Assembly: GCA_017620205.1 (NCBI GenBank)
Contig: JAFZQX010000044.1
Location: forward strand, 1-64,000
Source: Clostridia bacterium
GTDB lineage: Bacteria > Bacillota > Clostridia > UMGS1883 > UMGS1540
DNA: 64,000 nt
Reading direction: 5' to 3'
This document shows, piece by piece, positions 16,055-31,263 of this stretch (position 1 is its first letter; the number at the start of each line of letters is the position of its first letter). The notes under the pieces were generated by a model that was given only the letters and a program-made list of their open reading frames with translations, was not told the origin of the DNA and searched no databases. A program made the translations under genes and the position numbers.

Positions 16055-16114
16055 TCTGCTTAATTTTGCATATTTACTTAATTTCATATACTACTCCCTA
16101 TTTAGTGGCTTTAG

Positions 16115-16142
16115 GGCAGTCCGCGCTTATGTGCGGGCTGCC
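16115..16142 (+). repeat. Hairpin family copy 7, between kduI and eda
   Basis: Arms at 16115-16126 and 16131-16142 pair over 12 positions with two G-U pairs around a TTAT loop, and CTTT/AAAG extends the stem outside. A pyrimidine-rich CATATACTACTCCCT lies 15-30 bases upstream, resembling the leader of the hairpins at 19.7 and 23.2-23.5 kb. There is no T run after it. It sits in the intercistronic gap and could stabilise or process the mRNA. Confidence 0.55.
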
Positions 16143-16176
16143 AAAGAAGCTGCAATGTAACGAAGGAGACAAACAA

Positions 16177-17776: not shown

Positions 17777-18562
17777 ATGTTCAGATTAGACGGTAAAATT
17801 GCGCTTATAACAGGCGCGTCATACGGCATAGGCTTTGCCATTGCAAAGGGAATGGCAAACGCCGGAGCGACTATTGTATTTAACGATATTAAACAGGAGC
17901 TTGTAGACAAAGGCCTTGAAGCATACAAGGTAGAGGGAATAGAAGCACACGGCTATGTATGCGACGTAACGGACGAGGACGCCGTAAACGCTCTTGTAGC
18001 ACAGATTGAAAAAGAAGTCGGCGTTATTGATATTTTGGTAAATAACGCGGGCATTATAAAGAGAATACCGATGACCGAAATGAAGGCTTCGGAATTCAGA
18101 CAGGTTATAGACGTTGATTTAAACGCTCCGTTTATAGTTTCAAAAGCCGTTATCCCTTCAATGATTAAAAAAGGTCACGGCAAAATTATAAATATATGCT
18201 CCATGATGAGCGAGCTCGGACGTGAAACGGTTTCCGCTTACGCGGCAGCTAAAGGCGGACTTAAAATGCTTACAAGAAATATCTGCTCCGAATACGGAGA
18301 ATATAACATTCAGTGTAACGGCATAGGCCCCGGCTACATAGCAACGCCGCAGACGGCGCCGCTTCGCGAAATCCAGCCGGACGGCTCAAGACATCCGTTT
18401 GACAAATTTATCTGCGCAAAAACTCCTGCAGGCAGATGGCTTCAGCCCGACGAGCTTGCAGGTCCCGCAGTATTTTTAGCAAGTGAAGCTTCAAACGCCG
18501 TAAACGGACATATACTCTATGTTGACGGCGGTATTCTCGCTTATATCGGCAAACAGCCGTAA
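17777..18562 (+). CDS. kduD: 2-deoxy-D-gluconate 3-dehydrogenase (SDR family)
   Basis: The 261-residue short-chain dehydrogenase has TGASYGIG (about residues 13-20) for NAD(P) binding, NNAGI (about 91-95), and the catalytic Ser-Tyr-Lys set in CSMMSELGRETVSAYAAAK (about 141-159). KduD reduces 2,5-diketo-3-deoxygluconate, the KduI product, to 2-keto-3-deoxygluconate for KdgK. AAGGAGG lies upstream. Position after kdgK and completeness of the route support KduD; gluconate 5-dehydrogenase is the closest alternative name for the same family. Confidence 0.9.
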   Translation: MFRLDGKIALITGASYGIGFAIAKGMANAGATIVFNDIKQELVDKGLEAYKVEGIEAHGYVCDVTDEDAVNALVAQIEKEVGVIDILVNNAGIIKRIPMTEMKASEFRQVIDVDLNAPFIVSKAVIPSMIKKGHGKIINICSMMSELGRETVSAYAAAKGGLKMLTRNICSEYGEYNIQCNGIGPGYIATPQTAPLREIQPDGSRHPFDKFICAKTPAGRWLQPDELAGPAVFLASEASNAVNGHILYVDGGILAYIGKQP

Positions 18563-18593
18563 TAATAAGTTAAACTAAAAAGGAGAGAATAAC

Positions 18594-19454
18594 GTGAGAT
18601 ACAGGTTTTTGCGTTTTCCCGGCGGCAAAGCCAAAGCCGTGACTTTTAGCTATGATGACGGATTTAAAAGTGACAAACGGCTTGCAGAGACACTTTCCGA
18701 ATACGGATTAAAATGTACTTTTAATCTGAATAATTTCAATACGGATGATAAATTAAGCGATGACGATGTAAAAAAATACATTCTCGGAAATGGTCATGAA
18801 ATAGCTGTTCATGGTAAAATGCATCGCGCGGAAGGCGCTATGCGTAAAATAGAAGGTATTACAGATATTCTCGATTGCAGACGGGAATTGGAGAACAAAT
18901 ATTCTTTAATTATACGCGGTATGGCATACCCCGATTTCGGAATAAGAAAATTCACCGCTAATGTTACTTATGAGGATGTGAAAAATTATCTTAAAGAACT
19001 CGATATAGCATATTCGCGTACGCTTGGTGGAGATAATAACCGCTTTGAGATGCCAACTGATTGGTATGCCTGGATGCCGACAGCGCATCATGATAACCCT
19101 TGCATTATGGATTACATTGATGAGTTTATATCCATTGATATAGGTGTTCCGAATTATTTGATTTCATATCTTGAGCCAAGATTGTTTTATATTTGGGGAC
19201 ATAGCTATGAATTTGAAAGAAAAAACAATTGGAAACACCTTGATGACATTTGTCAAAAGATTTCCGGCAAAGAAGATATATGGTACGCAACAAACATTGA
19301 AATATATAATTATGTACAGGCGTATCATTCTCTGATTTATAGCGCTGACAGCCTAACGATATATAATCCAACCCTTTATACTGTTTATTTTGTTGCAGAC
19401 GGTAAGTTATACAGTGTCAATCCAGGCGAACAGATAAAAATAAATGAAGATTAG
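18594..19454 (+). CDS. Polysaccharide deacetylase family (CE4-type) protein
   Basis: The 286-residue protein starts at GTG 18594 behind AAAAGGAGAG. It has the NodB-homology metal motifs: VTFSYDDG (about residues 17-24) with the Asp pair, and HEIAVHGKMH (about 64-73) with the His-x3-His pair. The family removes N- or O-acetyl groups from sugars such as GlcNAc, xylan or peptidoglycan. No signal peptide is evident, so an intracellular oligosaccharide or a small substrate is likely. The C-terminal 40 residues form a short beta tail seen in some clostridial members. It lies 31 bases after kduD and may be the last gene of that transcript. Confidence 0.8.
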   Translation: MRYRFLRFPGGKAKAVTFSYDDGFKSDKRLAETLSEYGLKCTFNLNNFNTDDKLSDDDVKKYILGNGHEIAVHGKMHRAEGAMRKIEGITDILDCRRELENKYSLIIRGMAYPDFGIRKFTANVTYEDVKNYLKELDIAYSRTLGGDNNRFEMPTDWYAWMPTAHHDNPCIMDYIDEFISIDIGVPNYLISYLEPRLFYIWGHSYEFERKNNWKHLDDICQKISGKEDIWYATNIEIYNYVQAYHSLIYSADSLTIYNPTLYTVYFVADGKLYSVNPGEQIKINED

Positions 19455-19574
19455 ATATTACTGACTGTCAAACGATGTATAAATGTTAATATTATGCCTG
19501 ATTATGTTAATATATTGTCTATAAATAATAGCCTGATAGTTTTATAATGTAATTAGGAGTTAAGGAACTTGCTT

Positions 19575-19697
19575 ATGGATTACTGTATTGGTATGGATGT
19601 TGGAGTCACTAACATTATAGCGGGAATAACAGCTAAACTCTGAAACGATGCGGGTCTTATTGGAAGCGCAATGTTGTGTAAAGAGCTTTTTCAATAA
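19575..19697 (+). pseudogene. Remnant of a ROK-family kinase gene
   Basis: An ATG at 19575 opens 22 codons reading MDYCIGMDVGVTNIIAGITAKL, matching the N-terminal ATP-binding start of ROK kinases (IGIDIGGTNIKAGI type), then a TGA. In the same frame it continues NDAGLIGSAMLCKELFQ and ends at TAA 19695-19697. That second part matches the C-terminal end of ROK proteins; the NagB-ROK fusion at 25.2 kb ends similarly with NDAGALGAAML. So the two ends of a ROK gene are joined after loss of nearly the whole middle, plus a stop. It lies between the deacetylase and fucI genes and cannot make a functional kinase. Confidence 0.75.
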
Positions 19698-19723
19698 ACT
19701 ATGAATTATGATTTTTGCCAAAT

Positions 19724-19805
19724 TGTTTTTTCATACACTCTACACCTTACCTTATGTGAAGTATGGAGAGTTAATAATGATTTAACTCTCCATTTCGCTA
19801 AGGTG
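19724..19805 (+). repeat. Hairpin family copy 1, upstream of fucI
   Basis: A T run and CATACACTCTACACCTTA lead into a two-part stem. The inner stem ATGGAGAGTT (19763-19772) pairs perfectly with AACTCTCCAT (19784-19793) around an 11-nt loop. The outer stem CCTTA (19750-19754) pairs with TAAGG (19799-19803), and CACCTTA at 19743-19749 is an alternative partner. Its layout and leader match the hairpins at 23.2-23.4 kb. It ends 61 bases before the fucI start, in the presumed fucI leader. The rest of the 19455-19866 gap holds only the ROK remnant. Confidence 0.65.
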
Positions 19806-19866
19806 ATAAACAGGCTTAATTAGTTTGTGATTAATAATTAGTTATTAAAAATAGGGGGTTATATTT

Positions 19867-21651
19867 ATGGTAAAACCTAAAATCGGAATAAGACCAACAA
19901 TTGACGGAAGATGGGGCGGAGTACGCGAGAGCCTTGAAGCTAAAACAATGGCAATGGCAAATGCCGCTAAAGAGCTTATCGAGAAAAACGTAAGATATCA
20001 GGACGGCACACCCGCAGAGTGTGTAATATCTCCCTGCACAATAGGTGGCGGCGCAGAAGCCGCAAAGTGCGCGGACTATTTTAAAACGCAGAATGTCTGC
20101 GCGTCTCTTGCCGTAACACCCTGTTGGTGCTACGGAAGTGAAACAATGGATCTTTCCGGCGACACCGTAAAGGCAGTTTGGGGTTTTAACGGTACAGAAA
20201 GACCGGGCGCCGTATATCTCGCAGCCGTTATGGCAGCGTTTGCGCAGCGCGGCCTTCCCGCTTTCTCAATGTACAGTCACGATGTTCAGGATATAGAAGA
20301 CAATTCTATCCCCGAGGACGTTGCGGAAAAGATGATACGCTGGGCAAAGGGCGCTTTGGCAGTAGGTCAGATGAAGGATAAAGCGTATGTAAATCTCGGC
20401 GGCGTTGCAATGGGTATTGCAGGCTCATACTGCGATATGTCCTTTATGCAGAAATACCTCGGCATAAGAGCTGAATTTGTTGACCTTACTGAGATACTGC
20501 GCAGAATTAATCTTGAAATCTACGATAAAGACGAATACGAAAAAGCACTCAAATGGATAAAAGAAAACTGCAAGGAAGGCTTTGATAAAAACGCGGGCAA
20601 AAACTTCCCCGAAATTATCACAAAGTCAAAATATATCCCCGCCGATAAGGATTGGGAATTTATAGCTAAATTTACTATCATAGTAAACGATATATTATAC
20701 GGCAACCCGAAGCTCGATGAAATGGGCTGGCACGAAGAAGCGCTCGGCAAAAACGCGATAGTCGGCGGCTTCCAGGGACAGAGAAACTGGACAGACTGGC
20801 TGCCGAATGCCGATTTTACCGAAGCTATTATGGCAACGTCGTTTAACTGGAACGGCAAGAAAATGCCTACGCCTTTCGCGACGGAAAACGATACCTTAAA
20901 CGGCATTTCCATGCTGTTTGCAACATTACTTACGGGTAAAGCGCCCGCTTTCCACGATGTGCGTACATATTGGTCGCCCGAAAGCGTAAAGCGTGTTACT
21001 GGAAAAGACCTTACAGGCAACGCCAAAAACGGCATAATTCACCTTATAAATTCAGGTGCTACCGCTCTTGACTGCACAGGCGCATCAAAAGACGAAAACG
21101 GTAAAGGAACGCAAAAAGAATGGTGGAACATGACGGACGCCGATATTAAAGCTTGTCTTGAAGCTACCGACTGGTGCAGAGCGGATTATGAATATTTCCG
21201 CGGCGGCGGTTTCTCAAGCCATTTCAGAACACATGCCGAAATGCCCGTTACAATGCTGCGTGTAAACATAGTAGAGGGAATAGGACCCGTTATACAGATT
21301 GCGGAAGGCTATACGTGCGATCTTCCCGATGAAATACACGAAAAACTCGATAAGAGAACAGATCCTACATGGCCTACAACTTGGTTTGCTCCTATCCTTA
21401 CGGGCAAGGGCGCTTTTAAAGACGTATATTCCGTTATGGCAAACTGGGGCGCAAACCACGGCGTAACGGTAGGCGGACACGTTGGCGCAGACCTTATAAC
21501 TCTCTGCTCAATGCTGAGAATACCCGTAACAATGCACAATGTTCCGGAAGATAAGGTTTACCGTCCGCACGCTTGGGCGTCATTCGGCACAGAGGATACA
21601 CAGGCTGCCGACTACGCCGCTTGCAAGAAATACGGACCTATGTATAAATAG
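19867..21651 (+). CDS. fucI: L-fucose isomerase
   Basis: The 594-residue enzyme has the full length of FucI (591 in E. coli) and typical segments: KIGIRPTIDGRWGGVRESLE at the start, PCWCYGSETMDLS near residue 85, GFQGQRNWTDWLPN near 303, and HAWASFGTEDTQAADYAACKKYGPMYK at the C terminus. It converts L-fucose to L-fuculose with Mn2+. D-arabinose is a common second substrate. A ribosome binding site GGGGG lies upstream of ATG 19867. With the GH29 fucosidase it supports fucose use, but no fuculose-phosphate aldolase is in the window; the FGGY kinase at 8.0 kb could act next. The last 20 bases of the gene recur at 23179-23198. Confidence 0.95.
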   Translation: MVKPKIGIRPTIDGRWGGVRESLEAKTMAMANAAKELIEKNVRYQDGTPAECVISPCTIGGGAEAAKCADYFKTQNVCASLAVTPCWCYGSETMDLSGDTVKAVWGFNGTERPGAVYLAAVMAAFAQRGLPAFSMYSHDVQDIEDNSIPEDVAEKMIRWAKGALAVGQMKDKAYVNLGGVAMGIAGSYCDMSFMQKYLGIRAEFVDLTEILRRINLEIYDKDEYEKALKWIKENCKEGFDKNAGKNFPEIITKSKYIPADKDWEFIAKFTIIVNDILYGNPKLDEMGWHEEALGKNAIVGGFQGQRNWTDWLPNADFTEAIMATSFNWNGKKMPTPFATENDTLNGISMLFATLLTGKAPAFHDVRTYWSPESVKRVTGKDLTGNAKNGIIHLINSGATALDCTGASKDENGKGTQKEWWNMTDADIKACLEATDWCRADYEYFRGGGFSSHFRTHAEMPVTMLRVNIVEGIGPVIQIAEGYTCDLPDEIHEKLDKRTDPTWPTTWFAPILTGKGAFKDVYSVMANWGANHGVTVGGHVGADLITLCSMLRIPVTMHNVPEDKVYRPHAWASFGTEDTQAADYAACKKYGPMYK

Positions 21652-21673
21652 GTTAGAGGTGTAATTTTTTGTT

Positions 21674-22852
21674 ATGAATAATATAGATTTTACATATTTA
21701 AAGAATTTTATGGATAGTCTTACCGGGTGGATCATCCCCGGTAATTGTGCGGTTGTATATAAGGACGGCAAAAAGGTTTTTGAATACAGTTCCGGCTTTG
21801 CTGACCTTGAAAACAGAGTCCCTATGACAGGCAAAGAACAGCTCTATATCTATTCATGTTCAAAAATTGCTACCGTTACTGCTGCTTTGCAGCTCTATGA
21901 GCAGGGAAAATTTCTTTTAAGCGATCCGTTATATGAGTATATTCCGGAATATGCTGATATGAAAGTAAAAACCGGAGACAACGAATATAAGAAAGCCGAA
22001 AAACCCATAACAATTCAGAATCTTTTTACAATGACGGCAGGGTTTACATATAATACCAATACCCCCGCATTTCAAAAAGCACGCCAAATAACAAATGGGA
22101 AAATGGATACCATGACTGTTGTAAAATGTCTTTCCGAAGACCCTCTTATGTTTGAACCCGGAGAAAGATGGAATTACAGTCTTTGTCATGATATTCTTGC
22201 AGGTGTTGTTGAGGTAATATCCGGCAAAAAGTTTTCGGACTATGTAAAAGAAAACATTTTCGACAAATTGGGAATGAAAAATTCATATTATCATATAACT
22301 CCTGAAATCATGGCAAAAATGGCACATCAGTATAGATATGAAACTGAAAATGAGCAAGACTTGGTAAACTTGCAGAGCGGAAAATTCCGCAACGGCAAAG
22401 TTGTTGACACAGGTCTTTCAAACCATTTGGTGTTTGGTGATGAGTATGACAGCGGCGGCGCCGGAATAATTACAACTGCAGATGATTATGCACTATTCTC
22501 TGCTGCACTTGCAAACGGCGGTATGGGACTTAACAAAAACCGCATACTTTCATCAAGTACCATAGAACTTTTAAAACAAAACCAATTGAATGAAAAACAG
22601 CTTCCGTATTATAATTGGCCGCAGCTTAAAGGATACGGTTACGGTCTTGGCGTCAGAACTATGATTGATAAAGCTGCAGGCGGCTCGCCCGGCTCTATGA
22701 ATGAATTTGGATGGGGCGGAGCGGCAGGCGCAACTGTACTTATTGATACGGATTTAAACCTTGCTGCGTTTTATTCACATCATATGCTTAATCCACAGGA
22801 AGAATACTATCAACCGAGATTTAGAAATGTTTTGTATTCCTGCTTGGATTAG
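21674..22852 (+). CDS. Serine hydrolase, beta-lactamase class C / esterase family
   Basis: The 392-residue protein has the class C beta-lactamase fold. The nucleophile motif SxxK is SCSK near residue 58 (YIYSCSKIATV). The second motif is the Tyr of WNYSLCHDIL near 162, and FGWGGAAGATVL near 345 corresponds to the third. There is no signal peptide, so it is probably a cytoplasmic esterase acting on acylated sugars rather than an antibiotic-resistance enzyme. It begins 22 bases after fucI, so the two probably share a transcript. Confidence 0.83.
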   Translation: MNNIDFTYLKNFMDSLTGWIIPGNCAVVYKDGKKVFEYSSGFADLENRVPMTGKEQLYIYSCSKIATVTAALQLYEQGKFLLSDPLYEYIPEYADMKVKTGDNEYKKAEKPITIQNLFTMTAGFTYNTNTPAFQKARQITNGKMDTMTVVKCLSEDPLMFEPGERWNYSLCHDILAGVVEVISGKKFSDYVKENIFDKLGMKNSYYHITPEIMAKMAHQYRYETENEQDLVNLQSGKFRNGKVVDTGLSNHLVFGDEYDSGGAGIITTADDYALFSAALANGGMGLNKNRILSSSTIELLKQNQLNEKQLPYYNWPQLKGYGYGLGVRTMIDKAAGGSPGSMNEFGWGGAAGATVLIDTDLNLAAFYSHHMLNPQEEYYQPRFRNVLYSCLD

Positions 22853-22919
22853 TTGATAAACACATAATTATAAAACTTAACAAGACGACAATAATTTCTT
22901 CTTATAATCATCCTTTTTG

Positions 22920-22965
22920 CCGTGTTATGGAGAGACTATGAAAATTATGGCTCTCCATAACACGG
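22920..22965 (+). repeat. Hairpin family copy 4
   Basis: A perfect 15-bp inverted repeat, CCGTGTTATGGAGAG (22920-22934) with its complement at 22951-22965, encloses 16 bases. The arm sequence GGAGAG/GGCTCTCC is shared with copies 1-3, and ATAATCATCCTTTTT lies just upstream. Neither side has the T tract expected of a terminator on the + strand (AACCCTTATT follows). Confidence 0.65.
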
Positions 22966-23027
22966 AACCCTTATTAAAGAAACAATCTATTATTAATAAT
23001 GTATGTTACCGCTTGAGAGCGGCTCAT

Positions 23028-23106
23028 ACTATCTACTCTCTTTAAAAAACCCCGCGTGACAATGGGAACTGCTTTGACAAGTGGCAGTTTCCGGGGCACA
23101 GGGGGC
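23028..23106 (+). repeat. Hairpin family copy 5
   Basis: The leader CTCATACTATCTACTCTCTTT is followed by an outer stem CCCCG (23050-23054) with CGGGG (23092-23096). The inner stem GGAACTGC (23065-23072) pairs with GCAGTTTC (23084-23091) with one G-U. Between the stems the 5' side has about 10 unpaired bases and the 3' side none. GTG/CAC may pair as in copies 2, 3 and 6 in an alternative register. Read on the - strand the stem is followed by TTTTTT, so a minus-strand terminator is an alternative. It precedes a degraded fucI-like remnant. Confidence 0.6.
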
Positions 23107-23199
23107 ATGAACACAAAGGAGGTTATATATTACAAAGGCGGAGCATTATATAAAGCTTTCAAAAAACGAACGCTTTATTACGGACCTATGTATAAATAA
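23107..23199 (+). pseudogene. Remnant of a second fucI-like gene
   Basis: A 30-codon frame ends in YGPMYK plus stop, the exact C terminus of FucI, and shares 20 identical bases (23179-23198) with the fucI end at 21631-21650. Upstream, AAAGGAGGTTATATATT resembles the GGGGGTTATATTT that precedes the fucI start. I read this as the two ends of a fucI paralogue after internal deletion, or as a short recombination scar. With only 31 codons it is not expected to be functional. Confidence 0.5.
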
Positions 23200-23211
23200 A
23201 GTTATAAAAGT

Positions 23212-23294
23212 TTTTTTTCATACACTCCACTCTTTTAGCCCAGTGTGCAATGGGGAACTGTCAGCTTTTTGATGGCTCTCCTTTACACATGGGC
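23212..23294 (+). repeat. Hairpin family copy 3
   Basis: A run of eight T and CATACACTCCACTC leads into GCCCA-GTGT (23238-23246), which pairs with ACAC-A-TGGGC (23285-23294). The inner stem GGGGA...CTGTCA (from 23252) pairs with TGATGG...TCTCC (to 23281) using several G-U pairs. The 5' arm resembles copy 5 and the 3' arm resembles copies 2 and 4, as expected if pairing drifted through G-U intermediates. Confidence 0.65.
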
Positions 23295-23324
23295 AAAGGA
23301 AATACATTTGAATTTTTTTGAATT

Positions 23325-23406
23325 GTTTTTTTCATACTCTACTCACCTTTTTACCTTATGTGTATATGGAGAGCCACAGCATTTTGGCTCTCCGGTGCAC
23401 AAAGGT
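23325..23406 (+). repeat. Hairpin family copy 2
   Basis: The leader TTTTTTTCATACTCTACTCACC is followed by the outer stem ACCTT (23353-23357) with AAGGT (23402-23406), TGTG (23359-23362) with CACA (23398-23401), and the inner stem GGAGAGCC (23368-23375) with GGCTCTCC (23386-23393) around a 10-nt loop. It shares AATTGTTTTTT...CTTATGTG with copy 1 outside the stem, so the two are homologous over about 60 bases. Confidence 0.65.
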
Positions 23407-23445
23407 AACAAACAAAACATTCAGATTCTCCTCGGTTCCGAGGAA

Positions 23446-23527
23446 ATATATAAATCTACTCTTCTTAAAAAACCTGCTTGTGTAGCGGTGGGCTGCTTTA
23501 GGGGAAGCAGCCCCGGCACAAGGGGGA
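23446..23527 (+). repeat. Hairpin family copy 6, upstream of the nagB fusion
   Basis: The leader ATATAAATCTACTCTTCTT is followed by CTTGTG (23477-23482) pairing with CACAAG (23517-23522) and by GGGCTGCTT (23490-23498) pairing with AAGCAGCCC (23505-23513). The unpaired side is 7 bases 5' and 3 bases 3', as in the other copies. It ends 79 bases before the NagB-ROK start. On the - strand it is followed by TTTTTT, so a reverse-strand terminator cannot be excluded. The whole 22853-23600 gap holds five such hairpins and one remnant and no intact gene. Confidence 0.62.
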
Positions 23528-23600
23528 AATGAAAAGCTTTTAAAACTATTGCTAATAATTATATTCTTCATTAATTGAAATAAAAAAGGGAAGTGACATC

Positions 23601-25193
23601 ATGAAAGTTATAGTATGTGAAAATTACGATGAAATGTCAAAAAGAGCCGCTAAAATTATAGCGGCTCAAGTTACAATAAAGTCAGACAGTGTTTTGGGCT
23701 TTGCAACAGGCTCAACGCCCATAGGTCTTTATAGCGAACTCGGAAGAATGTACAGTGAAGAAGAAGTGGATTTTTCCGAGGTTACAACTTTTAATCTGGA
23801 TGAATACTATCCGATAAAGAAATCAAATGAACAGAGTTATGATTATTTTATGAGAAAAAATCTCTTCTCAAAGATAAATGTAAAAGACGAAAATATTCAC
23901 CTTCCAAACGGTGAAGCAGAAGATCCGCAAAAGGAATGTGAGTTTTACGAAAAGATGATAGAGAAAAGCGGCGGAATAGATTTACAGGTGCTCGGTATAG
24001 GCAGAAATGGACATATTGGTTTTAATGAGCCAAACTCTGTTTTAGTTCCTTCAACTCATCTTACAAAGCTGACTGAAAACACAATTAAGGCAAATTCACG
24101 ATTCTTTGATTCTTTTGACGATGTTCCGAAACAGGCGCTTACAATGGGGATTTCAACAATACTTAACGCTAAAAAGATAATAATCCTTGCAAGCGGCGCA
24201 AATAAGAGAAAAGCCGTAGCGGAACTTATAAACGGCGAGATTAACCCCAAAAACCCCGCAACAATGCTTAAAACGCATCACGATGTTACTCTCTTTTGCG
24301 ACAAAGAAGCATTTGCCGGTGCAAAACTCGGAATTGATATAGGCGGAACGGCAATTAAGTTTGCCGTTATAAATAACAATGAAGTTGTATATAAAGACAG
24401 CATTAAAACAGAGGATACGGAAGAAAAAATAATTTCAAGCATTACGGAAAAAGTTATAAGCCTTAAAAAAGACTACGAAATAACGACCGTCGGTATAGGT
24501 ACTCCCGGAAGAATAAAAGAAGGGAAAGTCACGGCAACAAATATTCCGTTTAAAAATACTGCTCTTCAGGACATCATTTCTGAAAAGACAGGTCTTTATG
24601 TAGTTGTCGATAACGATGCAAACTGTGCCGCCCTCGGTGAAATAGAGTTTGGCAGTACAAAAGACTGTGAAAACATAGTTCTTGTAACAATCGGAACGGG
24701 CGTTGGCGGCGGAATTATTATGAACAGACAAATAGCGCGTTCTAATAATAACATGGGCGAGATAGGACACTTTGTCATTCAAGCGAAAAACGGCAGAATT
24801 TGTCCTTGCGGTCAGAAAGGCTGCTGGGAGCAATACTGCTCTATGACGGCTCTTTTGAAAGACGCTCTGAAAGCCGCAAAAAAGGATAAAGAAAGCATAC
24901 TTTATAATAACATAGAAGACGGAAGCCTTACGGGCGAAGCTTTTTTTGACGCCGTCCAAAAAGGCTGCCCTGTTGCACAAAAGGTTTTTGACGATTATAT
25001 CCGATACCTTGCAATGGGTATAAACAGCCTTGTAAATATTTTCGGTCCCGATGCAATAGTTTTGGCGGGCGGCGTTACAAAACAGGGAGAAAAGCTTTTA
25101 GAACCGCTTAAAAAGCTTATTGTCGGCGATTTGCGCTTGGAAATATCAACGCTTCAGAATGACGCGGGCGCTCTTGGCGCCGCAATGCTTTAA
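23601..25193 (+). CDS. Glucosamine-6-phosphate deaminase fused to ROK sugar kinase
   Basis: This 530-residue protein joins two enzymes. Residues 1 to about 235 are NagB: FATGSTPIGLY (about 34-44), FNLDEYY (about 65-71, catalytic Asp) and LGIGRNGHIGFNEP (about 130-143). Residues from about 238 are a ROK kinase: LGIDIGGTAIKFAV starts the ATP site, VVDNDANCAALGE holds the catalytic Asp, and CPCGQKGCWEQYCS is the ROK zinc motif. NagB turns glucosamine-6-phosphate into fructose-6-phosphate and ammonia. The ROK half probably phosphorylates GlcNAc, ManNAc or glucose. With NagA at 27.1 kb it would form GlcNAc kinase, deacetylase and deaminase steps. GGGAAGTGA precedes ATG 23601. The frame is uninterrupted across the join. 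Confidence 0.9.
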   Translation: MKVIVCENYDEMSKRAAKIIAAQVTIKSDSVLGFATGSTPIGLYSELGRMYSEEEVDFSEVTTFNLDEYYPIKKSNEQSYDYFMRKNLFSKINVKDENIHLPNGEAEDPQKECEFYEKMIEKSGGIDLQVLGIGRNGHIGFNEPNSVLVPSTHLTKLTENTIKANSRFFDSFDDVPKQALTMGISTILNAKKIIILASGANKRKAVAELINGEINPKNPATMLKTHHDVTLFCDKEAFAGAKLGIDIGGTAIKFAVINNNEVVYKDSIKTEDTEEKIISSITEKVISLKKDYEITTVGIGTPGRIKEGKVTATNIPFKNTALQDIISEKTGLYVVVDNDANCAALGEIEFGSTKDCENIVLVTIGTGVGGGIIMNRQIARSNNNMGEIGHFVIQAKNGRICPCGQKGCWEQYCSMTALLKDALKAAKKDKESILYNNIEDGSLTGEAFFDAVQKGCPVAQKVFDDYIRYLAMGINSLVNIFGPDAIVLAGGVTKQGEKLLEPLKKLIVGDLRLEISTLQNDAGALGAAML

Positions 25194-29280: not shown

Positions 29281-29655
29281 CCCGATGATTTTTGACAACT
29301 GAATACCCAAACACGAAACTTTAACAGTAATCCGAGCCTTCAGCAAGTGCGCCGAGACTTCCTGTGAAGGACAAGCCCTTCATAAAAAGGTCGCATATAA
29401 GGAACGAGCGTGTTACCACTTGGCTGTGATACAGATGCGGCTATCTGTGTGTCATGACGATTACTGACGATAATGATACTCCAACTACGGTTGCCCGGAC
29501 GGATGTCGGGGAGGTGAAATTCCTGTGTTGCTTGCCAAAGCATTTCGTGTCAATGCCCGCAAAGTCAGGGGACAGGAATAATACTGATATTAAAGATAAA
29601 CGATTTAAGAATCAAAAATACAGACGCTACGGGTTATCCGTATCGTCTGTGTTAT
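29281..29655 (+). ncRNA. Candidate structured leader RNA upstream of xis
   Basis: The 535-base gap between the sigma-like gene and xis has no convincing ORF but many pairings. CCTTCA (29337-29342) pairs with TGAAGG (29365-29370), and that same TGAAGG can instead pair with a second CCTTCA (29377-29382), giving two exclusive hairpins. ACAGAT (29431-29436) pairs with ATCTGT (29443-29448). CCCG (29494-29497) pairs with CGGG (29507-29510). ACAGACG-TACGG (29620-29632) pairs with CCGTA-CGTCTGT (29638-29650) with one mismatch. The GC-rich run 29331-29580 contrasts with the A/T-rich flanks. It may control expression of xis and int by attenuation. From memory, similar blocks precede xis in related elements, but I could not check. 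Confidence 0.5.
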
Positions 29656-30069: not shown

Positions 30070-31263
30070 ATGGGAAAAGACTTGAAAGGAAAAGAAATAG
30101 GTGCCGGAATTTACCAGAGAAAAGACAAAAAATACTCCGCAAGATATTTAAGTAGAATTACAGGTAAAAGAGTTGAAAAATATTTTGACAAAGTTAATGA
30201 AGCCAGAAAATGGCTTGCCGAAGCAAAATACGAAGAAGAGCATAATACATATGGTGTGTCTTCAAAAATGACGGTTGATGCTTGGTTTGACTTTTGGGTT
30301 AAAAACATAGTTGCCGATTTGGCACCCAATACTGTTAGAAATTATACTGAAAGATATAAAACTAATATTCAACCTGTAGTAGGCAGACTGTTGTTGTCTG
30401 AGGTAAAACCTCTTCATTGCCAAAAGATATTGAATGATATGAACGAGTTTTATGCTGGCTCTACTATCAGACAAACATATATAACGATGGGAACCGTGTT
30501 TAAATCGGCACTCATGAATGATTTAATATCAAAGCATCCTATGGATGGGATTCGATTTACAAAGCCTGTAAAAGCAGTCAATGACATTAAGTATCTAACC
30601 GTGGAGGAACAAAAGAAGTTTTTAGAAGTAGCAAAGAGGTCACATAATTATTATCAATATGCTTTGATTCTTGAATTGGGTTTAAGAACGGGTGAATTAG
30701 TAGGATTAACATGGGATAGTATTGATTGGAAAAATCGCACCTTGACCGTAAATAAAACATTAGAGTATCGACATAATAATGGTTATTGGCGAGCAGGTCC
30801 CCCAAAAACTCCTACGAGTTACCGTACTATACCGCTTACAAACAGAGCGTATGATATACTGATGGACATATATTCTACAAAAGACACAAGAAAACAATCC
30901 GACATACTATCTCAAAAACTTGATTTTGTAGATAGACATACCGGTGAAAAGTCTACTCTTGTAATGAAAGATCTTGTTTTTATAAATTACAGAACAGGAG
31001 AACCGGCAAAGAACAGTTCTTATGACACCCATTTATATAAGTTGTGCGAAGAAGCAAATATAAGAAGATTTTGTATGCATTGTTTAAGACATACATATGC
31101 AACAAGAGCGGTAGAGGCGGGAGTGAATTTTAAATTTCTCAGTTCTCTGTTAGGTCATGCTTCTATTAAGACCACCCTTGACAGATACGCACATACAACA
31201 AAAGATTCAATGCTTCAAGCTGTTAAGCAATTTGAGACAAAAATGAACGAAATTATGGCATAA
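30070..31263 (+). CDS. int: Tyrosine site-specific integrase (Tn916 family)
   Basis: The 397-residue protein has the three parts of Tn916 Int. An N-terminal arm-binding domain (GAGIYQRKDKKYSARYLSR, residues 11-29) is followed by a SAM-like core-binding domain (about 70-160) and the catalytic domain. Catalytic residues visible are Arg in LELGLRTGELVGL (about 204), His and Arg in HCLRHTYATR (about 337-346), His in LLGHASIKTT, and Tyr in LDRYAHT (about 376). All are intact, so the enzyme looks active. AAAGGAG precedes the ATG. It catalyses integration and, with Xis, excision. Confidence 0.94.
   Translation: MGKDLKGKEIGAGIYQRKDKKYSARYLSRITGKRVEKYFDKVNEARKWLAEAKYEEEHNTYGVSSKMTVDAWFDFWVKNIVADLAPNTVRNYTERYKTNIQPVVGRLLLSEVKPLHCQKILNDMNEFYAGSTIRQTYITMGTVFKSALMNDLISKHPMDGIRFTKPVKAVNDIKYLTVEEQKKFLEVAKRSHNYYQYALILELGLRTGELVGLTWDSIDWKNRTLTVNKTLEYRHNNGYWRAGPPKTPTSYRTIPLTNRAYDILMDIYSTKDTRKQSDILSQKLDFVDRHTGEKSTLVMKDLVFINYRTGEPAKNSSYDTHLYKLCEEANIRRFCMHCLRHTYATRAVEAGVNFKFLSSLLGHASIKTTLDRYAHTTKDSMLQAVKQFETKMNEIMA

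Follow-up and report, generated by a model that had tools for sequence, protein, structure and literature searches.

Several described systems resemble the hairpins reported here. The CiaR-dependent csRNAs of streptococci are several related RNAs per genome and are thought to act via anti-Shine-Dalgarno (anti-SD) and anti-AUG sequences in an unpaired region beside stem-loops (PMC3091779). The LhrC1-5 RNAs of Listeria form a multi-copy family whose CU-rich motifs bind the start regions of surface-protein mRNAs (PMC4132741). The cip-cel operon of Clostridium cellulolyticum undergoes selective RNA processing and stabilisation, with stable intercistronic stem-loops in carbohydrate operons (PMC4423207). 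REP elements, associated with RAYT transposases, are intergenic one-strand hairpins occurring in small clusters.

We analysed an array of hairpins in a 64,000-nucleotide stretch of a Clostridia bacterium genome (hereafter, the window) and compared it with these systems. The array lies in a 748-bp gap between the gene of a beta-lactamase-like serine hydrolase (21674-22852) and a NagB-ROK fusion gene (23601-25193), and it contains five hairpins (c1 to c5, Table 1). The genes around it are all on the + strand and resemble genes for fucose, hexuronate and amino-sugar breakdown, encoding alpha-L-fucosidase, KduI, KDPG aldolase, a PfkB kinase, a short-chain dehydrogenase, a polysaccharide deacetylase, FucI, NagB-ROK, a nucleotidyl transferase, an APH-type kinase and an amidohydrolase. 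The fusion gene encodes a glucosamine-6-phosphate deaminase-ROK kinase of 530 aa, and several other Clostridia assemblies contain matches to the entire fusion at 70-76% identity. Elsewhere in the window, a pemK RNA motif (Rfam RF02913, 63 bits) is found at 29470-29528, 3' of a 141-aa reading frame and 5' of an integrase-like gene (30070-31263).

Table 1. Hairpin units of the array and their further copies. Positions refer to the window unless a contig is named.
Feature	Position	Strand	Sequence or evidence
Weak candidate unit 5' of the KDPG aldolase gene (eda copy)	16083-16152	+	same layout; low model score, 12.9 bits
Further unit upstream of fucI (fucI copy)	19725-19804 (tail 19725-19748, hairpin 19749-19804)	+	BLAST, covariance model
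c1 hairpin	22920-22965	+	perfect lower stem of 15 bp; CTACTC tail absent; anti-SD-like CATCCTTTTT immediately 5'
Small hairpin 5' of c2 tail	23009-23022	+	CCGCT-TGAG-AGCGG; sequence
c2 tail	23025-23049	+	antisense of a translation start region; 24/26 bases match C17:88785 gene start
c2 hairpin	23050-23105	+	fold
c3 tail	23211-23237	+	TTTTTTTTCATACACTCCACTCTTTTA; sequence, antisense-start score
c3 hairpin	23238-23294	+	fold, covariance model match
c4 tail	23325-23352	+	reverse complement AAAAAGGTGAGTAGAGTATGAAAAAAAC; antisense-start score
c4 hairpin	23353-23406	+	fold, covariance model match
Small hairpin 5' of c5 tail	23430-23443	+	CCTCGG-TT-CCGAGG; sequence
c5 tail	23449-23472	+	ATCTACTCTnnTTAAAAAACC common to c5 and c2; c5 without anti-AUG
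c5 hairpin	23473-23526	+	fold
C44a, pair on contig C44	C44:46977-47070		covariance model
C44b, pair on contig C44	C44:47077-47174		covariance model

The hairpin gaps also contain gene fragments. A fucI 3'-end-like fragment lies just 5' of c3 (23140-23199) and shares an identical stretch of 20 nt with 21631-21650. In the gap 5' of the fucI copy there is a ROK-type kinase relic (19575-19697), reduced to its N-terminal (MDYCIGMDVGVTNI) and C-terminal (NDAGLIGSAMLCKELF) ends. As these remnants show, genes have disappeared from the hairpin gaps, yet the hairpins kept pairing. The 95-aa + strand frame at 23245-23532 had no Pfam match and was taken as chance.

All five hairpins announced by the first-pass annotation are in place, and their folds beat dinucleotide shuffles with z-scores of -8.9 (c1), -2.5 (c2), -3.8 (c3), -6.5 (c4) and -3.7 (c5). 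The layout that it had ascribed to every copy except the first (T-rich stretch, CATAC..CTACTC-like tail, outer stem, asymmetric internal loop, inner stem) is indeed that of c3 and c4, but c2 and c5 have the CTACTC tail with a small 5' hairpin replacing the T-run. The mixed arms claimed for c3 were found as well, its 5' arm GGGGAACTG resembling c2 and its 3' arm TGGCTCTCC resembling c4 and c1. Covariation of the stems, also proposed there, was borne out: among the four best copies 7/24 pairs are changed on both sides, 0/500 shuffles reach the covariation score, and shifting the partner by 1-3 bases lowers pairing from 92% to 36-48%. When six copies are aligned to the model, the count of pairs changed on both sides becomes 11/24, again with 0/500 shuffles, in an alignment that leans to structure. 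The idea that selection acts on a structured single strand is supported by these compensatory changes and by the folding of the two strands, as the + strand RNA folds better than the minus strand in all nine copies (the further ones are described below), through G-U wobbles. There are 29 G-U pairs on + vs 5 on minus (binomial 4e-5, a value to be read knowing that the copies are related); therefore, the structured molecule is the + strand, the coding strand of the sugar operons. Finally, the hairpins do not behave as plain one-strand terminators, the outcome that would have spoken against that idea: on the + strand the T-run is 5' and not 3' of the hairpin, and a terminator scan matches none of the hairpins.

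A property of the tail had escaped the first-pass annotation. The pyrimidine motif noted there, TTTTTTCATACTCTACTCACCTTTT, is the reverse complement of AAAAGGTGAGTAGAGTATGAAAAAA, which is a Shine-Dalgarno sequence, a spacer and ATG AAA AAA; the motif is thus a translation start in antisense. We scored 48-nt windows with a start-site weight matrix built from 340 gene starts, drawn from the window and from about 390 kb sampled in its genome. Read in antisense, the tails of 7/9 copies (c2, c3, c4, fucI copy, eda copy, C44a and C44b) are in the top 1% of genome windows (0.09-0.89%), although the tail was recognised post hoc and the common ancestry of the copies means that the seven high scores are not independent. 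These scores equal those of many true gene starts; c1 (3.9%) and c5 (21%) failed, and with the same matrix the sense-strand scores of the tails are ordinary. The folds of c2, c4 and c5 leave most of the tail unpaired.

The array is not isolated, as further copies occur in the same window and on contig C44. BLAST of the 748-bp gap against its own genome revealed a C44 copy 80% identical over 81 nt (E 2.8e-9) and matched 19712-19770 in the window. A covariance model built from four copies found, at E < 0.002, the fucI copy, c4, C44:46977-47070, c3, C44:47077-47174 and c1, and nothing else; c1 matches a model built without it at 35 bits, despite its absent CTACTC tail. The weak eda copy came from a scan for CTACTC-like motifs and then stable folds, and brings to nine the copies counted, with about eight related hairpins in the genome. 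The C44 pair follows the genes of a rhamnose isomerase and a class II aldolase, with an FAD oxidoreductase gene on its other side, and 3' of the units comes a + strand hairpin plus T-run, CTGCTCTGC-TTTTACG-GCAGGGCAG-TTTTT. With units at the window and C44 sugar loci, the family is thus present in at least two sugar gene clusters.

Outside this genome, no convincing copy was found among 5 further members of the family, 27 more genomes from the order and about 390 sampled from the class with stricter filters, so that the cross-genome covariation test suggested by the first-pass annotation had no homologues to draw on. Where NagB-ROK has relatives, in other rumen and gut Clostridia, the gene order is different, without the gap and without units. 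The hairpins gave no relevant Rfam match at gathering or relaxed thresholds (LhrC included) and no match to phages by distant BLAST, and a pattern scan of viral contigs returned six stretches, none with a hairpin well above noise. Below-threshold model matches, in this and another genome, turned out to be real gene starts on the opposite strand. The sole other match of model R1 in family, order and class (G058, 38 bits) is a gene start (MKKLLS...) beside an opposite-strand terminator-like hairpin and was rejected; a match of model R2 at C37:24150 (24.8 bits), also rejected, overlaps an opposite-strand lipoprotein-like gene start without a similar hairpin. A real gene start beside a terminator can therefore mimic an antisense-start tail with its hairpin, and model matches should be checked on both strands.

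The units share with csRNAs their occurrence as several related copies per genome, the unpaired stretch complementary to SD and AUG adjoining a stem-loop, found in 7/9 copies, and CAU as anti-AUG in most copies (PMC3091779). Unlike csRNAs, they are arranged in tandem in sugar operons. The CiaR-type direct repeat TTTAAG-N5-TTTAAG has no match in 18265-24049 at up to 2 mismatches, the csRNA nonamer [A/C]UCCUAAA[A/C] has none in the window, and the terminator scan found no intrinsic terminator on the + strand of the window array, the only one being that 3' of the C44 pair. Having no CiaR repeat, nonamer or window-array terminator, the units are not csRNAs by membership. The comparison with LhrC1-5 shows the same multi-copy organisation and a motif complementary to start regions, with the difference that LhrC motifs are also in loops and terminator and here the motif is only in the 5' tail. 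No convincing promoter was seen before each unit, and CATACACT, considered on inspection only as a sporulation-sigma -10, was dropped because it has no consistent -35.

We also looked for start regions to which the tails could pair. The region matched by the c2 tail (Table 1), TTTTTTAAGGAGAGTAGATAATATG, belongs to the gene of a secreted laminin-G-like-domain protein. The predicted duplex, in which 20 continuous base pairs span the SD and 5 more reach the AUG, has an energy of -31.1 kcal/mol and makes C17:88785 the best c2 target among 386 start regions by 6.5 kcal/mol, in a sample of about 390 kb holding roughly a fifth of the genes. The same gene is the best target of c5 among those start regions (19 continuous pairs, -23.9 kcal/mol), but the c2 and c5 tails are related and their common target counts as about one observation. 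An equally good target was found by 1/240 (c2) and 2/240 (c5) dinucleotide-shuffled tails. The c3/c4-type tails, as well as those of the other copies apart from c2 and c5, have no outlier target in the sampled fifth of the genome, and the c4 tail has no other genome-wide site with <=3 mismatches over 19 nt. A start region TTTTTAAGGAGAGTAGANNATATGA is common to two paralogous secreted genes, L086 8785 (G000:C17) and L092 1523 (G000:C18); the C17 protein has laminin-G-like domains and the C18 paralogue is broken, with a stop at codon 3.

Tentatively, and as the reading with the best support, we take the hairpins for a putative lineage-specific family of multi-copy antisense RNAs acting in trans on translation starts, in the manner of csRNAs or LhrC, which is possible without being probable. 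The analysis shows the units, their structure and strand, the antisense-start tail and the one long predicted duplex; from these we infer that the RNAs are transcribed and processed, pair in the cell and repress. Each unit, about 90 nt long, would be transcribed on the + strand with the surrounding sugar-catabolic genes, and would be released from the operon transcript by cutting or else arise from promoters of its own. The unpaired tail, with its anti-AUG CAU and its anti-Shine-Dalgarno sequence, would pair with the ribosome-binding site and start codon of a target and block its translation, while the stable hairpin, selected to remain paired, would protect the RNA. For c2 and c5 the target may be the secreted laminin-G-type protein of C17:88785, perhaps also its broken C18 paralogue.

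The main rival of the antisense RNA reading is mRNA processing and stabilisation, in which an RNase would cleave operon mRNA within the U-rich stretch, and the end of the upstream or downstream piece would be protected by the hairpin, thus setting gene ratios inside the sugar operons. The units are stable intercistronic stem-loops (about -27 to -35 kcal/mol) on the coding strand between sugar genes, without a T-run on their 3' side, as at most described sites (PMC4423207), and a U-rich single-stranded stretch precedes c3, c4 and the fucI copy. However, the hairpins here are one sequence family with an antisense-start tail, several in a row, and stabilisation leaves the conserved tail, the kinship of the copies and five hairpins in succession unexplained. 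We consider it somewhat unlikely; the two readings would be compatible if operon transcripts are the source from which the units are cut. The antisense-start tail also bears on the reverse possibility, that hairpin, ribosome-binding site and ATG are leaders of tiny or decayed minus-strand frames, as the reverse-complemented tails are good start regions, gene relics lie in the same gaps and real gene starts beside terminators look like units. Against this, the G-U asymmetry assigns the structure to the + strand, the frames have about 8-30 codons and are mutually unlike, and the conserved bases that follow the A-run (CAATT in both c4 and the fucI copy) are in different frames, making such leaders very improbable.

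The first-pass annotation had left three suggestions side by side: cis leader, small RNA and mobile hairpin. A small RNA of antisense type is now favoured on account of the tail, whose sequence is that of a translation start site in antisense, and the other two are less likely. That the units act in cis, as leaders or riboswitch-like elements of the sugar operons 3' of them (fucI; nagB-ROK), would suit their position upstream of both on the coding strand, but there is no Rfam match, the loop bases are not conserved as in an aptamer, a terminator-like hairpin stands between the units and the next gene on C44, and nagB-ROK relatives in other genomes lack units; we think this improbable. A hairpin element of low copy number that moves or duplicates (IS200/IS605- or REP-like), spreading as single-stranded DNA with no regulatory role, also seems doubtful. 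Copies about 80% alike occur at separate loci with unrelated flanks, the fold is asymmetric like single-strand transposon ends, and the genome has two Y1_Tnp genes. Yet a cognate transposase flanked by the same hairpin was found neither at the genome's RAYT-like gene (G000:C37:3319-3654, L024), which is flanked by its own, different repeat (GGGGACGTACAC / GTACGTCCCC), nor at the IS200-type gene C8:75575. The units differ from REP elements also in their low copy number, only about eight, and in a stem foot without constant tetranucleotide, CTAC becoming CCAC in c3, C44a and C44b.

Going further within the antisense RNA reading, arrays of paralogous antisense-start RNAs in operon gaps might be freed by processing rather than by promoters and terminators of their own, so that the level of the operon transcript would directly set the repression of secreted glycan-binding proteins. 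We regard this as unlikely in so specific a form; we found no description of a multi-copy operon-to-surface feedback of such kind for the class Clostridia. If true, it would link sugar-operon expression to the translation of secreted glycan-binding proteins, and would extend the idea behind csRNAs and LhrC, several redundant antisense-start RNAs per cell, to poorly known gut-type Clostridia.
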